Below, in pieces: positions 6,607-42,609 of a DNA stretch of 42,609 bases. Below the pieces are notes generated by a model. The model did not search any database, had not been told where the DNA came from, and worked only from the letters and a program-made list of their open reading frames with translations. Position 1 is the stretch's first letter; the number at the start of each line of letters is the position of its first letter. The stretch lies in NCBI GenBank assembly GCA_947457095.1, contig CANGUK010000008.1, positions 1 to 42,609 of the forward strand. Direction: 5' to 3'. The position numbers and the translations under genes are program-made. The DNA is from Cyclobacteriaceae bacterium (GTDB lineage: Bacteria; Bacteroidota; Bacteroidia; Cytophagales; Cyclobacteriaceae).

Positions 6607-7752
6607 TTAGTTGCCCGAAAAAGGGCACTTGCCAGCAGCAAAACTTGGGGTTTTTGGAGCTTCATCTTCCTTCCAAGCAGCAGGTTGGTAATAAAAATTC
6701 GGAGACAGAATTTGATTCTCCCAATCTTTATGAAATACCCCAAGTGTCGAGCCAGCGGCTGGGGGCACAATCCAGGCCCAATCTGCTTGTACCGATCTAC
6801 CCTTTGCCTCTTCTTGCTTGCAAAATTCTAAAAACTGCTCGGAGGCAGTATGGTGATCCACCAAAGTCACGCCTTGGGATTGAAAGGAATGTAGCACTGC
6901 CTCCTGAAGGACTAGCATCGCTTTATCTTTCCATAGTGTTTTCACTTGGCGCGTGTCTAACTTCATTTTTTTGGCAAGGACTGGGAGCAAATTGTACCGC
7001 TGCTCATCCCCAAGATTTCTGGCCGCGATTTCAGTGAGCATGTACCAGCCATTGAAGGGGGCACAGGGAAAGGATATCCCCCCAATTTCCAACCGCATAT
7101 CGGAGATCACCGGTACGGCATACCATTGGAGATTTAGTTCTTGAAACCAGGAGTATTCTGGATGGAATAAATTCACGCGAAGCACCTGCTCTTCAGGAAT
7201 ACCAAACCATTGCGCATGCTCTCCCTCCCGTTGAATGACTAGTGGCAGAAGATCAAAGGCCGTTTTCTTTCCCTCCCAACCCAAAGAAGTACAGTATCGG
7301 GTAAATGAAACCGAATCAGGGTCCCCTAGAATCTCTCCATTAGGAAGGGAATACCCTGCAAATCGGATTAGCTGCTTGTTTAAAATACGAAATCCTGAAC
7401 CCCCCTCATCAGCCGTGGCGTAGACGGATAGCGTAGACCGAATTTTTCCTCCATGGGTAGCCGATTTGAGGTGGGCCATAGCATCGGCAAATACCTCTTC
7501 AGCGCTACTTAAACTCCTCCGATCTCTAACTTTTAAGGTTTTCCAAAAAAGTCTCCCCATGCAGCGGTTGCTATTCCGCCAGGCTAGCTTCGCCCCAAAG
7601 CTCAGCTCCTTTTCCGTCAAGCGATAGGTACCGGTCTGCAAAATTTCAACCTGCACCTGATCTAGCCTTTTTTCCACTCCCGAAAGGTTGGATTCGGAAT
7701 AGTATTGCTGAAGAAATTCTTGGGCTTGTTCAAATAAGGAAGAAGTACGCAT
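6607..7752 (-). CDS. nos: bacterial nitric oxide synthase oxygenase
   Basis: A 381-residue stand-alone oxygenase domain that should oxidise L-arginine to citrulline and NO, using borrowed reductases. The proximal haem ligand is C64 in the signature WRNSNRCMGRLFW. The substrate-binding glutamate is E241 in NGWYMLTEIAARNLGD. I216 (PVISDM) occupies the gate position where bacterial enzymes carry Ile and mammalian ones Val. The pterin-site and dimer region DHHTASEQF and WIVPPAAGSTLGVFH are intact. There is no N-terminal zinc hook and no fused reductase, as in Bacillus enzymes. A short tail after about residue 362 ends AAGKCPFSGN and is not part of the catalytic core I know. It lies between the GH3-like gene and uvrA, with a 173-base gap upstream. 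Family assignment is very secure. Confidence 0.96.
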   Translation of the reverse strand: MRTSSLFEQAQEFLQQYYSESNLSGVEKRLDQVQVEILQTGTYRLTEKELSFGAKLAWRNSNRCMGRLFWKTLKVRDRRSLSSAEEVFADAMAHLKSATHGGKIRSTLSVYATADEGGSGFRILNKQLIRFAGYSLPNGEILGDPDSVSFTRYCTSLGWEGKKTAFDLLPLVIQREGEHAQWFGIPEEQVLRVNLFHPEYSWFQELNLQWYAVPVISDMRLEIGGISFPCAPFNGWYMLTEIAARNLGDEQRYNLLPVLAKKMKLDTRQVKTLWKDKAMLVLQEAVLHSFQSQGVTLVDHHTASEQFLEFCKQEEAKGRSVQADWAWIVPPAAGSTLGVFHKDWENQILSPNFYYQPAAWKEDEAPKTPSFAAGKCPFSGN

Positions 7753-38208: not shown

Positions 38209-38901
38209 ATGGAATCCCCCCAAGGCCTCCGAACTATGCATAAAATCGATTCTTCTGAAGTAAACAATAGGTGGTCACGCGTGGGGATAGGCAAAATTAT
38301 TTTGGTTGCCTTCCATGTAGTCGGAGCCATTGGACTCAGCCTGCCCGAGTATCGAGACCTATTTTTAGCTTTGACTCCCTTTCATTTGTTGGCCACGATG
38401 GGGCTTATTCTGGTCTATCACCGAGGTTGGACGGATTCATTTCCCATTTTTGGAGCGGCAGCATTTTGGATTGGATTTGGGTCCGAATTGATTGGGATCC
38501 ACACCGGCTATTTGTATGGGGATTACGTGTATGGCCCTACACTTGGTGTGATGCTGTGGGAAGTCCCTTTGGTGATTGGGGTCAACTGGTTTGTGCTCAG
38601 TTACTTGACTGGCTCAGTATTCCACAAGACTCCCAACGATTGGTACGCGGCCTTTTTGGGTGCCTCTGCCATGACTGCACTTGATTACATCTTAGAGCCT
38701 GTGGCCGTATCGCTCAATTTTTGGGCTTGGAAGTTGGACATCATTCCTGTCAGCAATTACCTCGGCTGGTTTGGAGTATCCTTCCTGATTCAGCTCATCT
38801 GGCGGAAAGCCAAATTTGAAAAATACAATCCATTGGCCACTTGGCTTTTGATTACTTGGATCCTCTTTTTTACACTCTTAAATTTTACAGTACTGCCTTA
38901 A
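38209..38901 (+). CDS. cruF: CruF-like carotenoid biosynthesis membrane protein
   Basis: A 230-residue membrane protein with about seven hydrophobic segments of the Caroten_synth/DUF422 family, which includes CruF (carotenoid 1',2'-hydratase) and archaeal bisanhydrobacterioruberin hydratase. Diagnostic is WIGFGSELIGIHTGYLYGDYVYGPTLGVMLWEVPLVIGVNWFVLSYLTG, then ALDYILEPVAVSLNFWAWKLDIIPVSNYLGWFGVSFL. It should hydrate the psi-end of a monocyclic carotenoid on the way to saproxanthin, myxol or flexixanthin-type pigments. The start could instead be the ATG at 38236. It is first in the cluster, 58 bases before crtZ. Confidence 0.87.
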   Translation: MESPQGLRTMHKIDSSEVNNRWSRVGIGKIILVAFHVVGAIGLSLPEYRDLFLALTPFHLLATMGLILVYHRGWTDSFPIFGAAAFWIGFGSELIGIHTGYLYGDYVYGPTLGVMLWEVPLVIGVNWFVLSYLTGSVFHKTPNDWYAAFLGASAMTALDYILEPVAVSLNFWAWKLDIIPVSNYLGWFGVSFLIQLIWRKAKFEKYNPLATWLLITWILFFTLLNFTVLP

Positions 38902-38959: not shown

Positions 38960-39406
38960 ATGTTGTTGTCTATCGTCTATATCGCTCTTGGATTTGCCGC
39001 CATGGAACTCTCTGGCTGGTTTATTCATAAGTATTTGATGCATGGCCCACTTTGGATGATTCACAAGACCCATCACCAGCCTTCCCATTCTTTTTTTGAA
39101 TGGAATGACCTGTTTTCCTTGTTGTTTGGAAGTATTGCGATGGTGTTGATCTTTTTCGGAGTGGAGCAATTGGATTACCGCTTTTGGATGGGAGTAGGGA
39201 TAAGTTTGTACGGCATGCTCTATTTTGTATTGCATGACGTCTTGGTTCACCGCCGCTTGCGGTGGTTTAGCAAACCCAAGCATCCTGTATTGAAGGGAAT
39301 CTACAAGGCGCATCAGGCACATCACAAAACCAACCAAAAGGAGGATGCGGTTTCTTTTGGCTTATTTCTAGTACCCAAACAATTCTTTAATAAGGAGGAG
39401 CAGTGA
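38960..39406 (+). CDS. crtZ: beta-carotene hydroxylase
   Basis: CrtZ is a di-iron membrane hydroxylase that adds the 3-OH to beta-ionone rings. The 148-residue protein shows the full histidine set: HKYLMH at about 23-28, HKTHH at 35-39, HDVLVH at about 93-98 and HQAHH at about 118-122, among four membrane segments. Length is slightly short but normal for bacterial CrtZ. Its stop overlaps the start of the MerR regulator gene by 4 bases (GTGA), so pigment enzyme and regulator are translated together. Confidence 0.94.
   Translation: MLLSIVYIALGFAAMELSGWFIHKYLMHGPLWMIHKTHHQPSHSFFEWNDLFSLLFGSIAMVLIFFGVEQLDYRFWMGVGISLYGMLYFVLHDVLVHRRLRWFSKPKHPVLKGIYKAHQAHHKTNQKEDAVSFGLFLVPKQFFNKEEQ
39392..39398 (+). 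promoter_or_regulatory. strong Shine-Dalgarno for the MerR-type regulator
   Basis: AAGGAGG lies 4 bases before the GTG start at 39403, inside the last codons of crtZ. Most genes of this window show no Shine-Dalgarno, as is usual in Bacteroidota. Here it supports the GTG start, though the site also encodes Lys-Glu-Glu of CrtZ. Confidence 0.6.
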
Positions 39407-40299
39407 GCACGTATTCAATAAAAGATCTCGAACAATTGTCAGGCATCAAGGCCCATACGCTACGGATATGGGAGCAGCGGTACAACTTGCTGCAGCCCAA
39501 ACGTACGGATACCAACATTCGGTATTACGATGACGATGACTTAAAGTTGATCTTGAATGTGGCTTTGCTCAATGACAATGGGGTAAAAATCAGCAAAATT
39601 GCCTCCATGTCACCAAACGAGTTGCGTGAAGAGGTAATGAAACTCACCGAACGTTCCTTGACTCACGACGACCAGATCCATGCATTGACCATCTGCATGA
39701 TCGAAATGGATGAGGAGCGTTTTGATAAAATATTAAGCACAAACATCATTAAACTAGGTTTTGAGCAAACGATGCTCAATATCATTTATCCCTTCATGTC
39801 CAAGATTGGCGTACTCTGGCAGACGGGAGCCATCAATCCAGCACAGGAGCATTTTATTTCCAACCTGGTACGACAAAAATTAATTGTAGCTATCGATGGG
39901 CAGATTCCACAGCGCGGAGGCAAAAAATTTCTGCTCTTCTTGCCTGAAGGAGAACTTCATGAAATTTCCATTCTTTTTGCTAGCTATTTGATCAAATCCA
40001 AAGGCCATAAGGTGATCTATTTGGGACAAAGCACACCGAATGATGACTTGCTTGCCGTGTACAAGTTGCACCAGCCAGAGTACCTATTGACAGTGATCAC
40101 TACCTCTCCTTCCTCGGAATATGTGCAGGAATACATCAATGCGCTATCCGATCGATTTGGCAACGCACAAATCTTAGTTACGGGATACCAAGTGCTGGGG
40201 CAGGATCTCAACTTTCCTGGCAATGTCAGCCAGATGAGTTACATCAGAGACATCAAGGACCTACTTGAGGAGATTGAACCTGTGTTTCAAGAGAAATAG
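39403..40299 (+). CDS. CarH/LitR-like MerR regulator with cobalamin-binding half
   Basis: A 298-residue regulator. The N-terminal MerR winged helix (residues 3-75) reads YSIKDLEQLSGIKAHTLRIWEQRY. A helical bundle (about 85-165) contains the Wx9EH motif: W139, then nine residues, then E149-H150. A B12-binding Rossmann domain (about 174-290) has E184-x-H186 in GELHEISIL and YLGQSTP. In Thermus CarH, an adenosylcobalamin photoreceptor, W131, E141-H142 and H177 are the equivalents. Here the glycine ending the ExHxxG motif is Ser189, and the residue after W139 is Gln where CarH has His132. It starts with GTG overlapping crtZ. It probably represses carotenoid genes in the dark, by analogy. A terminator follows at 40348. 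Confidence 0.88.
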   Translation: MSTYSIKDLEQLSGIKAHTLRIWEQRYNLLQPKRTDTNIRYYDDDDLKLILNVALLNDNGVKISKIASMSPNELREEVMKLTERSLTHDDQIHALTICMIEMDEERFDKILSTNIIKLGFEQTMLNIIYPFMSKIGVLWQTGAINPAQEHFISNLVRQKLIVAIDGQIPQRGGKKFLLFLPEGELHEISILFASYLIKSKGHKVIYLGQSTPNDDLLAVYKLHQPEYLLTVITTSPSSEYVQEYINALSDRFGNAQILVTGYQVLGQDLNFPGNVSQMSYIRDIKDLLEEIEPVFQEK

Positions 40300-40338
40300 T
40301 TAAACAAAATTGTTTAAGTCTTAAACAAACCTGTTTTT
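40300..40338. repeat. two tandem 18-base palindromes, 21-base period
   Basis: Directly after the regulator stop codon, TTAAACAAAATTGTTTAA (40300-40317) is a palindrome with perfect 8-base arms. A degenerate copy starting TTAAACAAACC (40321-40338) follows with a 21-base period, two helical turns. Single TGTTTAATC motifs recur at 40405 and 40449. They look like regulator binding sites related to the operator at 40446-40481. Confidence 0.65.
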
Positions 40339-40347
40339 GAAAAAACG

Positions 40348-40377
40348 GCCTTAATTCATCATTAAGGCTATTTTTTT
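40348..40377 (+). terminator. intrinsic terminator of the cruF-crtZ-regulator operon
   Basis: GCCTTAAT pairs perfectly with ATTAAGGC around the loop TCATC, followed by TATTTTTTT. It separates the regulator transcript from the sigma-crtI-crtB transcript. Confidence 0.85.
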
Positions 40378-40440
40378 GCCTTTCTCATCCCATTTCAGTT
40401 TTTCTGTTTAATCTTTTTTATTTTTTATTCCACAAAATAG

Positions 40441-40470
40441 TTGGATTTTGTTTAATCGTTCTTAGATTTG
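40441..40470 (+). promoter_or_regulatory. promoter for the sigma-crtI-crtB operon
   Basis: TTG (40441-40443), a 19-base spacer and TAGATTTG (40463-40470) match the Bacteroidota -33/-7 pattern at normal spacing. Transcription would start near 40477, 15 bases before the ATG at 40492. Confidence 0.6.
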
Positions 40471-40481
40471 ATTAAACAAAA
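40446..40481. promoter_or_regulatory. 12-12-12 inverted repeat, probable CarH-like operator
   Basis: TTTTGTTTAATC (40446-40457) and GATTAAACAAAA (40470-40481) are perfect reverse complements separated by 12 bases. The repeat starts just inside the -33 element, includes the -7 box in its spacer and ends at the predicted transcription start. MerR-family regulators characteristically bind dyads on the promoter, so this is the best operator candidate for the upstream regulator. Confidence 0.75.
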
Positions 40482-40491
40482 CGCCATCAGC

Positions 40492-41004
40492 ATGACTACT
40501 CTAGAATTTAGCTACTCCTTACAAAAGCTTTCTAGCTCCTTGAAGCCATTTGCCATGAAGCTTACCCGTGATGTAGACGATGCCAACGACCTCTTGCAGG
40601 ACACGATGGTAAAGGCATTCACCAACAAGGATAAATTCACAGAGGGAACCAATCTGAAGGCTTGGTTATACACCATCATGAAAAACACCTTCATTACCAA
40701 CTACCAACGGATGGTAAGAAGAGGTACCTTTGTAGATACCACAGACAATTTGCATTACATCAATTCAAGTGATGCGTTGATTGACAATGGCGTTTTTGGC
40801 AATTTCACAATGGATGACATTCAGGAAGCCATCCAAAAGTTGGACGAAGTGTACCGGACTCCCTTCCTGATGCACTTCCGAGGATTCAAGTACCATGAAA
40901 TTGCAGACAAGCTTGAAATTCCTATTGGTACTGTGAAAAATAGAATCCATATTGCTCGCAAGCTATTGAAAGAAGACCTGATGGTCTACAAGCACAAAAA
41001 TTAA
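40492..41004 (+). CDS. ECF-family RNA polymerase sigma factor
   Basis: A 170-residue extracytoplasmic-function sigma factor. Region 2 (about 10-75) reads LKPFAMKLTRDVDDANDLLQDTMVKAFTNKDKFTEGTNLKAWLYTIMKNTFITNYQR. Region 4 (about 108-165) reads IQEAIQKLDEVYRTPFLMHFRGFKYHEIADKLEIPIGTVKNRIHIARKLLKEDL. The ATG at 40492 is preferred; a TTG at 40468 would put the -7 box and operator half inside the coding region. No anti-sigma gene is adjacent. It is followed by crtI after 4 bases, so it is the first gene of the pigment operon and may control crt promoters, as LitS does in Streptomyces. Confidence 0.93.
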   Translation: MTTLEFSYSLQKLSSSLKPFAMKLTRDVDDANDLLQDTMVKAFTNKDKFTEGTNLKAWLYTIMKNTFITNYQRMVRRGTFVDTTDNLHYINSSDALIDNGVFGNFTMDDIQEAIQKLDEVYRTPFLMHFRGFKYHEIADKLEIPIGTVKNRIHIARKLLKEDLMVYKHKN

Positions 41005-41008
41005 TTCT

Positions 41009-42493
41009 ATGTCAAAAAAACATGTGGTAGTCATCGGATCCGGATTTGCCGGGCTTTCCGCAGCTACCCACCTGGCAGATAAGGGCAACTGCAAAGTGAC
41101 CCTACTTGAAAAAAATAATTCCCCTGGTGGAAGAGCTAGAAAGTTCGAGCACCAGGGGTTTGTTTTTGATATGGGGCCCAGCTGGTACTGGATGCCCGAT
41201 GTATTCGAAACTTATTTTGCCCACTTCGGGAAAAAACCAGCCGACTATTACGACTTGATCCGTTTGGATCCTTCCTATGCTGTCATCTATGGGGAGCAAG
41301 ATGTCCTGGATATCCCTGCCAACTTGGACGAATTTAAAGCCATGCTGGAAGGCATCGAGCCAGGAGCAGCCGCCAATCTGGACAAATTCCTTGCTCAGGC
41401 CAAGTACAAATACGAAGTCGGCATTCACGACTTAGTTCACCGCCCAAGTAGATCACTATTCGAGTTTGCCTCTCCTCGCCTACTCCTGGATATGATGCGG
41501 ATGGACATCTTCCAGTCCATGTCCAAGCACGTGCGCAGCTTCTTTAGACACGACAAGATCGTGCGACTTATGGAATTTCCCGTTCTTTTCCTTGGGGAAA
41601 CAGCCAATAACATCCCTGCACTTTACAGCTTGATGAACTATGCTGACATTGCCCTAGGAACCTGGTATCCCAAAAAAGGCATGCATGAAATCATCAAAGG
41701 CATGGTGGCTTTGGCAGAAGAAAAAGGAGTGACATTCAAGTACGATGCAGAAGTTGAGAAAATCGAGGTGACCCATGGCACTGCCAAAAGTCTCCTCCTC
41801 CGTTCCGGTGAGCGCATTGAGGCAGACATTATTGTAGCAGGAGCGGATTACCACCATGTGGACAAGCATTTGCTGGAACCGGCCTACAGCAACTACTCGG
41901 AAGAATATTGGAACAAGCGTGTAATGGCTCCTTCGAGCTTGCTCTTTTACCTCGGAGTAAACAAGCGATTGAAAAACCTACGCCACCACAACCTGTTTTT
42001 TGATGAGCCGCTTGGGCCACATGCCGATGCGATCTACACCAATCCAAGGTGGCCAGAAAAGCCGCTTTTTTATGCATCTGTACCTTCGATTACGGACCCT
42101 ACAGTAGCTCCGGAGGGGATGGAAAACCTCTTCTTGCTCGTACCACTTGCGCCAGATTTGGAGGATACGGAAGCAATGCGCGAAAAGTACTTCCACATGA
42201 TCCTAGACCGATTGGAAAAAATCACCGGCCAAGAAATCCGTTCGCACATCGTCTTCAAACGATCCTATGCACACAACGACTTTAAGTCGGACTACCACGC
42301 CTTCAAGGGCAATGCCTATGGGTTGGCAAATACCCTGATGCAGACGGCCATTTTGAAGCCTAGTCTCAAAAGCAAAAAAGTGAGAAACCTTTATTACACA
42401 GGGCAATTGACCGTCCCTGGACCGGGTGTACCTCCTTCCCTGATTTCAGGGCATGTAGTAGCAAAAGAGGTGATGAAAGAAAACAATTTGTAA
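41009..42493 (+). CDS. crtI: phytoene desaturase
   Basis: CrtI is the FAD-dependent desaturase that converts phytoene to lycopene. The 494-residue protein starts with the dinucleotide-binding motif VVVIGSGFAGLSAATHLADKG and continues with LEKNNSPGGRARKFEHQGFVFDMGPSWYWMP. It ends with the carotenoid-desaturase signature LYYTGQLTVPGPGVPPSLISG. Length is typical. It lies 4 bases after the sigma-factor gene and 21 bases before crtB, forming an operon. A paralogous desaturase (CrtD type) is possible, but the position before crtB and overall likeness favour CrtI. Confidence 0.94.
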   Translation: MSKKHVVVIGSGFAGLSAATHLADKGNCKVTLLEKNNSPGGRARKFEHQGFVFDMGPSWYWMPDVFETYFAHFGKKPADYYDLIRLDPSYAVIYGEQDVLDIPANLDEFKAMLEGIEPGAAANLDKFLAQAKYKYEVGIHDLVHRPSRSLFEFASPRLLLDMMRMDIFQSMSKHVRSFFRHDKIVRLMEFPVLFLGETANNIPALYSLMNYADIALGTWYPKKGMHEIIKGMVALAEEKGVTFKYDAEVEKIEVTHGTAKSLLLRSGERIEADIIVAGADYHHVDKHLLEPAYSNYSEEYWNKRVMAPSSLLFYLGVNKRLKNLRHHNLFFDEPLGPHADAIYTNPRWPEKPLFYASVPSITDPTVAPEGMENLFLLVPLAPDLEDTEAMREKYFHMILDRLEKITGQEIRSHIVFKRSYAHNDFKSDYHAFKGNAYGLANTLMQTAILKPSLKSKKVRNLYYTGQLTVPGPGVPPSLISGHVVAKEVMKENNL

Positions 42494-42514: not shown

Positions 42515-42609
42515 ATGGATGCCATTTCCCTATATGACCAAACTACCTTAGAGTGCAGCAAGCTGATCACCCAGCGCTACAGTACTAGTTTTACTTTGGG
42601 CATCAAAAC
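42515..42609 (+). CDS. crtB: phytoene synthase (3' end outside window)
   Basis: Only the first 31 codons are present. The reading MDAISLYDQTTLECSKLITQ followed by RYSTSFTLGIK matches the N-terminus of bacterial CrtB, where the SxLIT-xxYSTSFxLGI block is strongly conserved. CrtB joins two geranylgeranyl diphosphates into phytoene, the first carotenoid-specific step. It starts 21 bases after crtI. Further carotenoid genes (cyclase, ketolase) may follow beyond the window. Confidence 0.9.
   Translation, partial: MDAISLYDQTTLECSKLITQRYSTSFTLGIK

Follow-up and report, generated by a model that had tools for sequence, protein, structure and literature searches.

A putative tandem operator for a CarH/LitR-like regulator at a sigma factor and carotenoid gene promoter in Cyclobacteriaceae, and its recurrence across Bacteroidia

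The stretch of DNA analysed here, referred to as the window, covers positions 1 to 42,609 of contig CANGUK010000008.1 of a Cyclobacteriaceae bacterium (genome of 2.47 Mb, 84% complete). Towards its downstream end, on the plus strand, a Caroten_synth family gene (38236..38901; PF04240 over cut-off; CruF-like, with the CruF models below their cut-offs) is followed by an FA_hydroxylase family gene (38960..39406; PF04116; crtZ-like by context), the regulator gene whose start it overlaps (39403..40299), a pair of dyads designated O1 and O2, a sigma factor gene and crtI. The first gene after the dyads encodes an ECF sigma factor (40492..41004, ATG at 40492; Sigma70_r2 and Sigma70_r4_2, with TIGR02937 over cut-off), and a crtI-type phytoene desaturase gene (41009..42493; NF058655 CrtID, 749 bits, cut-off 640) starts 4 bp beyond it, at 41009. 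The next ORF (42515..42609, plus strand), truncated at the window end, looks like a crtB-type phytoene synthase gene by eye, from its sequence. The regulator, of 298 aa with a GTG start, was identified from Pfam and from PDB sequence and fold matches as a CarH/LitR-like MerR protein with a B12-binding-type C-terminus, as the original prediction had proposed for a gene just upstream of the promoter. Between the regulator and O1 lies an intrinsic terminator-like hairpin with a T run (40347..40376, plus strand); the terminator scan found two such hairpins in the region, one per strand, where 0.1 was expected. Elsewhere in the window, the minus strand carries a nitric oxide synthase oxygenase domain gene (6607-7752; PF02898, 516.7 bits).

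O2 (40446..40481) has the form TTTTGTTTAATC-N12-GATTAAACAAAA, with two perfect 12-base arms around a 12-base centre, and the full sequence TTTTGTTTAATCGTTCTTAGATTTGATTAAACAAAA. Its core is TGTTTA (40449-40454), N18 and TAAACA (40473-40478). No second match to TTTTGTTTAATCGTTCTTAGATTTGATTAAACAAAA with up to three mismatches occurs in the window, and none is expected by chance, as judged from 0 matches in 100 dinucleotide shuffles. These shuffles and the reversed-motif controls described below rule out a chance origin of the dyad. The perfect 12-12-12 inverted repeat of the original prediction was therefore borne out, and so was its promoter framing. A TTG -33 element (40441..40443, plus strand) lies 19 bases upstream of TAGATTTG (40463..40470, plus strand), which sits between the O2 arms and which we take, from a consensus of the TAnnTTTG type, to be the -7 box. 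O2 extends from beside the -33 element to just beyond the predicted start.

A motif scan and comparison with relatives revealed a second dyad, O1 (40403..40436; TCTGTTTAAT-N14-ATTCCACAAA), 44 bp before O2. The two form a putative tandem operator, O1/O2, in which O2 is the half lying within the promoter; O1 had been overlooked. Conservation was assessed in the best 80 of 526 loci from a scan of genome contigs, mostly from Algoriphagus and other Cyclobacteriaceae. In 67 of the 80, no more than 600 bp separate the regulator stop codon from the sigma start, and all 67 carry O2 with 0-3 of 20 mismatches, its end 10-17 bp from the sigma ATG. Of these 67 relatives, 47 have TTG and 65 have TAnnTTTG in register with O2. 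An O1 equivalent with up to five mismatches lies at an offset of 43-45 in 64 of the 67, and of exactly 44 in 56 (offsets 36-55 scanned). Among the remaining 13 loci, one (L136) has its dyad 11 bp before the sigma gene, after an insertion, and the sequence of another (L065) ends early; the other 11 lack a sigma gene in reach, by text patterns, as well as any dyad near the regulator. The outcome that the original prediction had named as counting against it was loss of the dyad where the gene order is kept. Such loss was not seen: with L136 included, the dyad precedes the sigma gene in all 68 named loci, among these 80, that have one in reach. Across the 0.99 Mb of the 80 loci, gap 14 separates 123 arm pairs (up to three mismatches), and no other gap from 0 to 30 separates more than 11.

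The dyad scan also detected a weak third dyad, O0 (40296..40329), over the regulator stop codon, with 5 of 20 mismatches and uncertain membership. At this position 21 of 79 relatives have a gap-14 dyad with up to four mismatches, and none of the other gaps between 8 and 21 is found in more than eight. O0 could be a roadblock or an autoregulatory site.

Sampling was extended to 20 loci at the order level and 30 regulator loci at the class level. A gap-14 dyad with up to three mismatches lies within 200 bp after the regulator in six order-level loci and elsewhere in the fetched stretch in two, and is missing from the fetched stretches of the other 12. At the class level, 18 of the 30 loci carry such a dyad; the 12 others lack it. 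Some of the loci without it, at either level, have looser dyads. Sorted by gap, the class-level loci hold 28 dyads at gap 14 and, at each of the remaining gaps between 4 and 25, no more than two. The relaxed form TGTnnA-N-TnnACA occurs in all 50 loci 57 times at N18 and 2-15 times at other spacers. At their sigma promoters, L058/L295 and L286 have nothing closer than four-mismatch versions, that of L058/L295 being one spacer base longer. The putative tandem operator is conserved in geometry, with a looser fit outside the named Cyclobacteriaceae loci.

The dyad was then compared with the regulator over 295 Bacteroidia genomes. The exact core, in its N16 form, occurs in 112 of them (71 of 155 genera; reversed control, 4 of 295), and the regulator profile, at E 1e-20 or better, matches 184. 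Both are found in 109 genomes, the dyad only in three, the regulator only in 75 and neither in 108 (Fisher p 3e-26, a value that ignores the kinship of the genomes). Put differently, the regulator accompanies 109 of 112 dyad genomes against 75 of 183 dyad-negative ones. In one of the three dyad-only genomes (G160), the dyad lies inside a gene. The absence of the exact dyad from 75 of the 184 regulator-bearing genomes counts against the reading preferred here, in which the dyad is the operator of a class-wide CarH-like repressor. So do the order-level and class-level loci that lack a gap-14 dyad at up to three mismatches, and the 11 named loci with neither a sigma gene nor a dyad by the regulator. 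In a further search, 18 of 148 genomes matched the exact core, all inside the class, and the 111 from elsewhere in the phylum gave no match; base composition may contribute to this zero.

These counts bear on whether the dyad might instead serve a different transcription factor, one active in the light or oxidative response and without a link to the neighbouring MerR gene. The 12 of 20 order-level regulator loci without a gap-14 dyad at up to three mismatches in the fetched stretch, together with the 3 of 112 dyad genomes without a regulator match, would fit such a factor. The 109 dyad genomes that do have the regulator argue otherwise, as do a half-site of the CarH type and several dyads placed ahead of the regulator gene itself, for example directly at 3 bp (L244) and 30 bp (L316). 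We consider an unrelated factor improbable.

Genes other than the sigma gene lie behind the dyad. In the window's own genome, TTTGTTTAAT-N14-ATTAAACAAA with up to three mismatches matches in three places, namely O2, O1 and a site upstream of a rhodopsin gene (reversed control, one match), and a copy with one extra spacer base lies ahead of a PTPS-folE-SDR gene set. Within the genus, TTGTTTAA-N10-24-TTAAACAA was found in 53 of 59 genomes, and its reversed control in 5 of 59. Forty genus dyads were picked among the matches listed, chosen as not being at a sigma promoter. Their nearest genes encode PTPS (22), rhodopsin (8), aldehyde dehydrogenase (5), Blh (1), peroxiredoxin (1) and a fasciclin-like protein (1); two are unassigned, one at a contig end (L186) and one terminator-like by eye (L210). 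Two of the forty (L176 and L199) fall inside a longer mechanical ORF.

Class-wide, the 28 new loci behind the exact-core matches were read, including the window itself (L266). Behind their dyads were genes for sigma factors (13, one of them, L261, a fragment only), DUF4397 (4), rhodopsin (2), the regulator (2), crtZ (2), and crtI, PTPS, folE and an SRPBCC-like protein (1 each), with one dyad inside a gene. The sigma gene is followed by a photolyase gene in L248 and by a phytoene synthase gene in L254. A further 20 picked dyads, from eight genomes, added fasciclin (4), SRPBCC-like (2), SDR (2), crtI (2) and regulator (2) genes. One of the 20 lies 204 bp from a photolyase gene and nearer, at 86 bp, to another gene, and six lie beside genes without a clear light role, which counts against the preferred reading. 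Gene names in the genus, 28-locus and 20-dyad sets are readings of the translations unless Pfam-tested. Pfam confirmed the tested examples of PTPS, GTP cyclohydrolase I, SDR, rhodopsin, Blh, DUF4397, fasciclin, photolyase, aldehyde dehydrogenase, sigma factor and phytoene synthase; the SRPBCC-like example L300 had no Pfam match at 1e-6. The genes behind the dyads are largely light-related. The genus and class-wide matches at other genes rule out a lone palindrome private to sigma/crtI. The original placement of the dyad on the sigma/crtI promoter was correct, and its picture of a single element was not: the dyad is paired with O1 and shared with other genes.

Several further features of these loci were noted. 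In several families, genes for secreted DUF4397-type proteins follow exact dyads (L242, L246, L247 and L255; L242 Pfam-tested); these are possible further members of the same regulon. Secreted proteins with fasciclin domains recur behind the dyad as well (L301, L303, L307, L309 and L179; L301 Pfam-tested). At PTPS genes, N19 replaces N18 in the window's genome (L010, G000:C87) and in L196, L203 and L206. One extra spacer base seems to be tolerated, given N19 at these and at 11 of 70 rhodopsin loci. The PTPS upstream regions (L174-L208) share conserved blocks besides the dyad, TGA....CAgg..tTT.a upstream and CtGTT downstream, that match no familiar promoter box and may be a target of the ECF sigma factor.

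The placement of the dyads also speaks to a role in RNA, as a hairpin, attenuator or terminator, rather than as a protein site. Inverted repeats can fold, and L210, one of the 40 genus dyads, resembles a terminator. At the sigma gene, however, the left arm adjoins the -33 element and precedes the predicted start; the spacer varies in sequence but hardly in length; and the L313 dyad, among the 20 picked, has rhodopsin and Blh genes diverging from its two sides. On these three grounds the RNA reading was rejected, and we give it almost no credence.

Rhodopsin genes were examined separately. Rhodopsin is present in 34 of the 59 genus genomes, 30 of which gave loci; in 23 of these the best upstream dyad has gap 14 with up to three mismatches, and in seven it has another gap. 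PF01036 scored over cut-off in 86 of 395 genomes, and the regulator is present in 61 of the 62 rhodopsin genomes within the 295-genome sample. For a class-wide set of 70 of the 93 matches listed, up to 350 bp before the estimated start were scanned. TGTnnA-N18/19-TnnACA lies upstream of 35 of the 70 genes, against a mean of 1.7 and a maximum of 6 in 200 rounds of shuffling. By spacer, N18 occurs in 26 loci, N19 in 11 and any other spacer from 8 to 29 in at most four. The other 35 upstream regions have no N18 or N19 dyad, and this again counts against the preferred reading. All 70 rhodopsins have the helix-C triplet DTE, which we take to be the mark of proton-pumping proteorhodopsins. The rhodopsin of Dokdonia PRO95 is reported to be constitutively expressed (PMC3587595). 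Constitutive expression in that strain counts against light-relieved repression. Light-induced transcripts in Dokdonia were reportedly described by Kimura et al. in 2011, and prior light-response data for dyad-linked genes may already exist.

The arrangement at these promoters can be set against that of a classic MerR activator, which would bind between -33 and -7, untwist the promoter and switch the sigma-crt genes on. The original prediction had read MerR-style action from the position of the dyad between -33 and the start. Since a spacing of 19 bp is ordinary for Bacteroidota primary-sigma promoters, and since CarH acts by occlusion, placement alone is no proof of such activation. O2 does bracket the -7 box within the core promoter, as an activator site might. 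Its arms, however, are 24 bp apart start to start, and usual MerR dyads are narrower; O1 lies upstream; and the distance from dyad to start codon varies from 10-17 bp at sigma genes to about 30 bp at PTPS and about 62 bp at rhodopsin genes. The characterised CarH and CarA proteins are, moreover, repressors (PMC8156234, PMC9304148). Activation by untwisting is therefore unlikely.

The regulator itself has an N-terminal MerR winged-helix DNA-binding domain (MerR_1, PF13411, 58.9 bits, cut-off 21.6), in which W23, E24, R26 and R34 are present in 40 of 40 homologues. B12-binding_2 scored 44.1 bits against a cut-off of 23, and the Rossmann B12 domain PF02310 scored 21.4 bits, below its Pfam cut-off of 32.1. 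Chains of TtCarH/LitR are the best PDB matches by sequence (E 3e-20). The best fold match to an AlphaFold2 model (pLDDT 87) is full-length TtCarH (E 1e-14, TM about 0.6); the whole chain superposes at an rmsd of 9 Å or more, and the B12 domain alone at TM about 0.8 and rmsd about 3 Å. The four-helix bundle and the Rossmann fold are both recognisable, the latter with a weak sequence signature. The NCBIfam CarH equivalog NF052513 gave 94.4 bits where 400 are required, and the regulator was therefore not filed as a CarH equivalog.

Residue conservation was read in 79 Cyclobacteriaceae regulators and in a class-wide set of 40 of the 54 sought, those passing a text pattern and length filter. Residues are numbered as in TtCarH, in which His132 belongs to the bis-His light adduct. 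Equivalents of TtCarH W131, E141, E175 and H177 are present in 40 of 40 class-wide regulators, and of H142 in 39. Within Cyclobacteriaceae the W-x9-EH adenosyl-contact motif occurs in 79 of 79, as does the ExH of the E/D-x-H-x-x-G cobalamin ligand motif, whose last position is Ser in 76, Ala in 2 and Gly in 1. Class-wide, that position (Gly180) is Ser in 23, Gly in 12, Ala in 4 and Asn in 1, and the second Gly of the GG-type region is mostly Tyr. The position of His132 is His in none of the 40 (Gln, Leu, Met, Thr, Val, Gly or Ile instead), and is Gln in 78 and Leu in 1 of the 79 Cyclobacteriaceae proteins. The absence of His132 and the degenerate B12 signature count against the step that invokes AdoCbl and light. 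The low NF052513 score and the loose whole-chain superposition on CarH likewise count against the preferred reading. Judged by sequence and model, the regulator is a protein of predicted CarH fold that keeps most cobalamin contacts, with a weakened Rossmann B12 signature.

The same operator and regulator might accordingly operate with a protein that is no longer an AdoCbl photoreceptor, being B12-independent like CarA or answering to a partner or redox signal. The missing His132, the changes at Gly180 and the GG-type region and the sub-threshold PF02310 score would suit such a protein. So would two precedents, CarA, which can bind B12 without needing it (PMC8156234), and class II LitR, which works with a LOV partner (PMC9758184). 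Conservation of W-x9-EH and ExH in all 79 Cyclobacteriaceae regulators and in nearly all of the 40 class-wide ones suggests instead that selection keeps the cobalamin and adenosyl contacts. Loss of the photoreceptor function is a real but doubtful possibility, the most serious of those weighed here.

Comparison with known systems began with CarH, an AdoCbl photoreceptor repressor in Thermus thermophilus, Bacillus megaterium and myxobacteria. CarH half-sites are described as nnnnTnnACAn in tandem 11-bp direct repeats (PMC9304148) and also as nAnnTnnACAn (PMC8156234). All four window arms fit TnnACA (TGTTTA, TCCACA, TGTTTA and TAAACA). Tandem 11-bp direct repeats are not present at O1/O2; the half-sites there form inverted pairs with an N18 spacer, which is N19 at some other targets. 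The motif had been held to differ from CarH/LitR operators, and this applies to the inverted N18 arrangement but not to the half-site. The present system further shares with CarH the MerR domain, four-helix bundle and Rossmann-type domain (best PDB match), W-x9-EH, His177 and an operator that overlaps a carotenoid-gene promoter (PMC8156234, PMC9304148). Unlike CarH, it has two inverted pairs offset by 44 bp, with 24 bp from one half-site start to the other within a pair, a TTG/TAnnTTTG promoter, no His132, mostly Ser for Gly180, and rhodopsin and pterin genes among the targets.

In Myxococcus xanthus, CarA has an operator of about 55 bp with two dimers bound over the -35 region (PMC8156234), and some Myxococcus operators hold inverted repeats (PMC9304148). 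The likeness of CarA to O1/O2 is one of operator description. CarA functions without B12, and the antirepressor CarS releases it. In Streptomyces, of another phylum, the light regulator LitR lies beside the ECF sigma factor LitS, and the pair controls carotenoid genes. The class II LitR proteins PplR and PmlR of Pseudomonas have the consensus T(G/A)TACA-N12-TGTA(C/T)A (PMC9758184), which the window core TGTTTA-N18-TAAACA does not match. Their light-induced set includes photolyase, folE and SDR, overlapping the dyad gene list; of the B12 domains they retain the four-helix bundle alone, a LOV protein drives them, and the part of that report drawn on here mentions no rhodopsin or sigma target (PMC9758184). 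MliR (PMC9478572), considered as a candidate for this regulator, was rejected, being described as a MerR-like protein without an effector domain. The main text of a Flavobacterium psychrophilum transcriptome report (PMC9723704), in the part covered, held no match to MerR, carotenoid or TTGTTTA. An exact-motif search of open-licence PMC text returned nothing relevant among the matches listed, and the operator was not found in print in the open-licence PMC literature. As judged from sequence comparison, this is a CarH-like system with an operator architecture of its own, apart from the published CarH and LitR operators.

Taken as a whole, the dyad is most likely the putative operator of the adjacent CarH/LitR-like regulator. 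The proposal that it serves this regulator very probably holds, with two corrections, the tandem pair and the class-wide, light-related gene set. The fixed geometry, promoter placement, neighbouring genes, co-occurrence with the regulator, and CarH fold and contacts all favour O1/O2 as the sites of a class-wide CarH-like dark repressor acting on carotenoid, pterin and rhodopsin genes, to which we assign a probability of about 0.7. Direct binding, repression and dependence on AdoCbl and light are what we infer from these observations. In the dark, the regulator at O1 and O2 would repress the sigma-crt operon, its DNA-binding domains sitting on the TnnACA half-sites. The oligomer on O2 would lie over the start site as well as both promoter elements, -33 and -7, and so exclude RNA polymerase; that on O1 would cover the region just upstream, so that the primary-sigma promoter would be occluded. 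By analogy with CarH, light would release the regulator, most likely through photolysis of AdoCbl, and the sigma factor and CrtI, and probably CrtB, could then be produced. PTPS-folE and rhodopsin would be coordinated through the same operator, joined in other lineages by Blh, SDR, fasciclin, sigma-linked photolyase and the regulator gene. The broader proposal is that of one CarH-like regulon across Bacteroidia, in which carotenoid, retinal and pterin genes and proteorhodopsin are joined through TGTnnA-N18/19-TnnACA under a photoreceptor without the His132 adduct; we hold it at slightly better than even odds.

If true, this would be the transcriptional control of proteorhodopsin that has been missing for Bacteroidota. 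It would add a new operator architecture to the CarH family and extend the CarH regulon to phototrophy, through a cobalamin-type regulator to which His132 photochemistry cannot apply. With operator and regulator both named, the proposal is testable.
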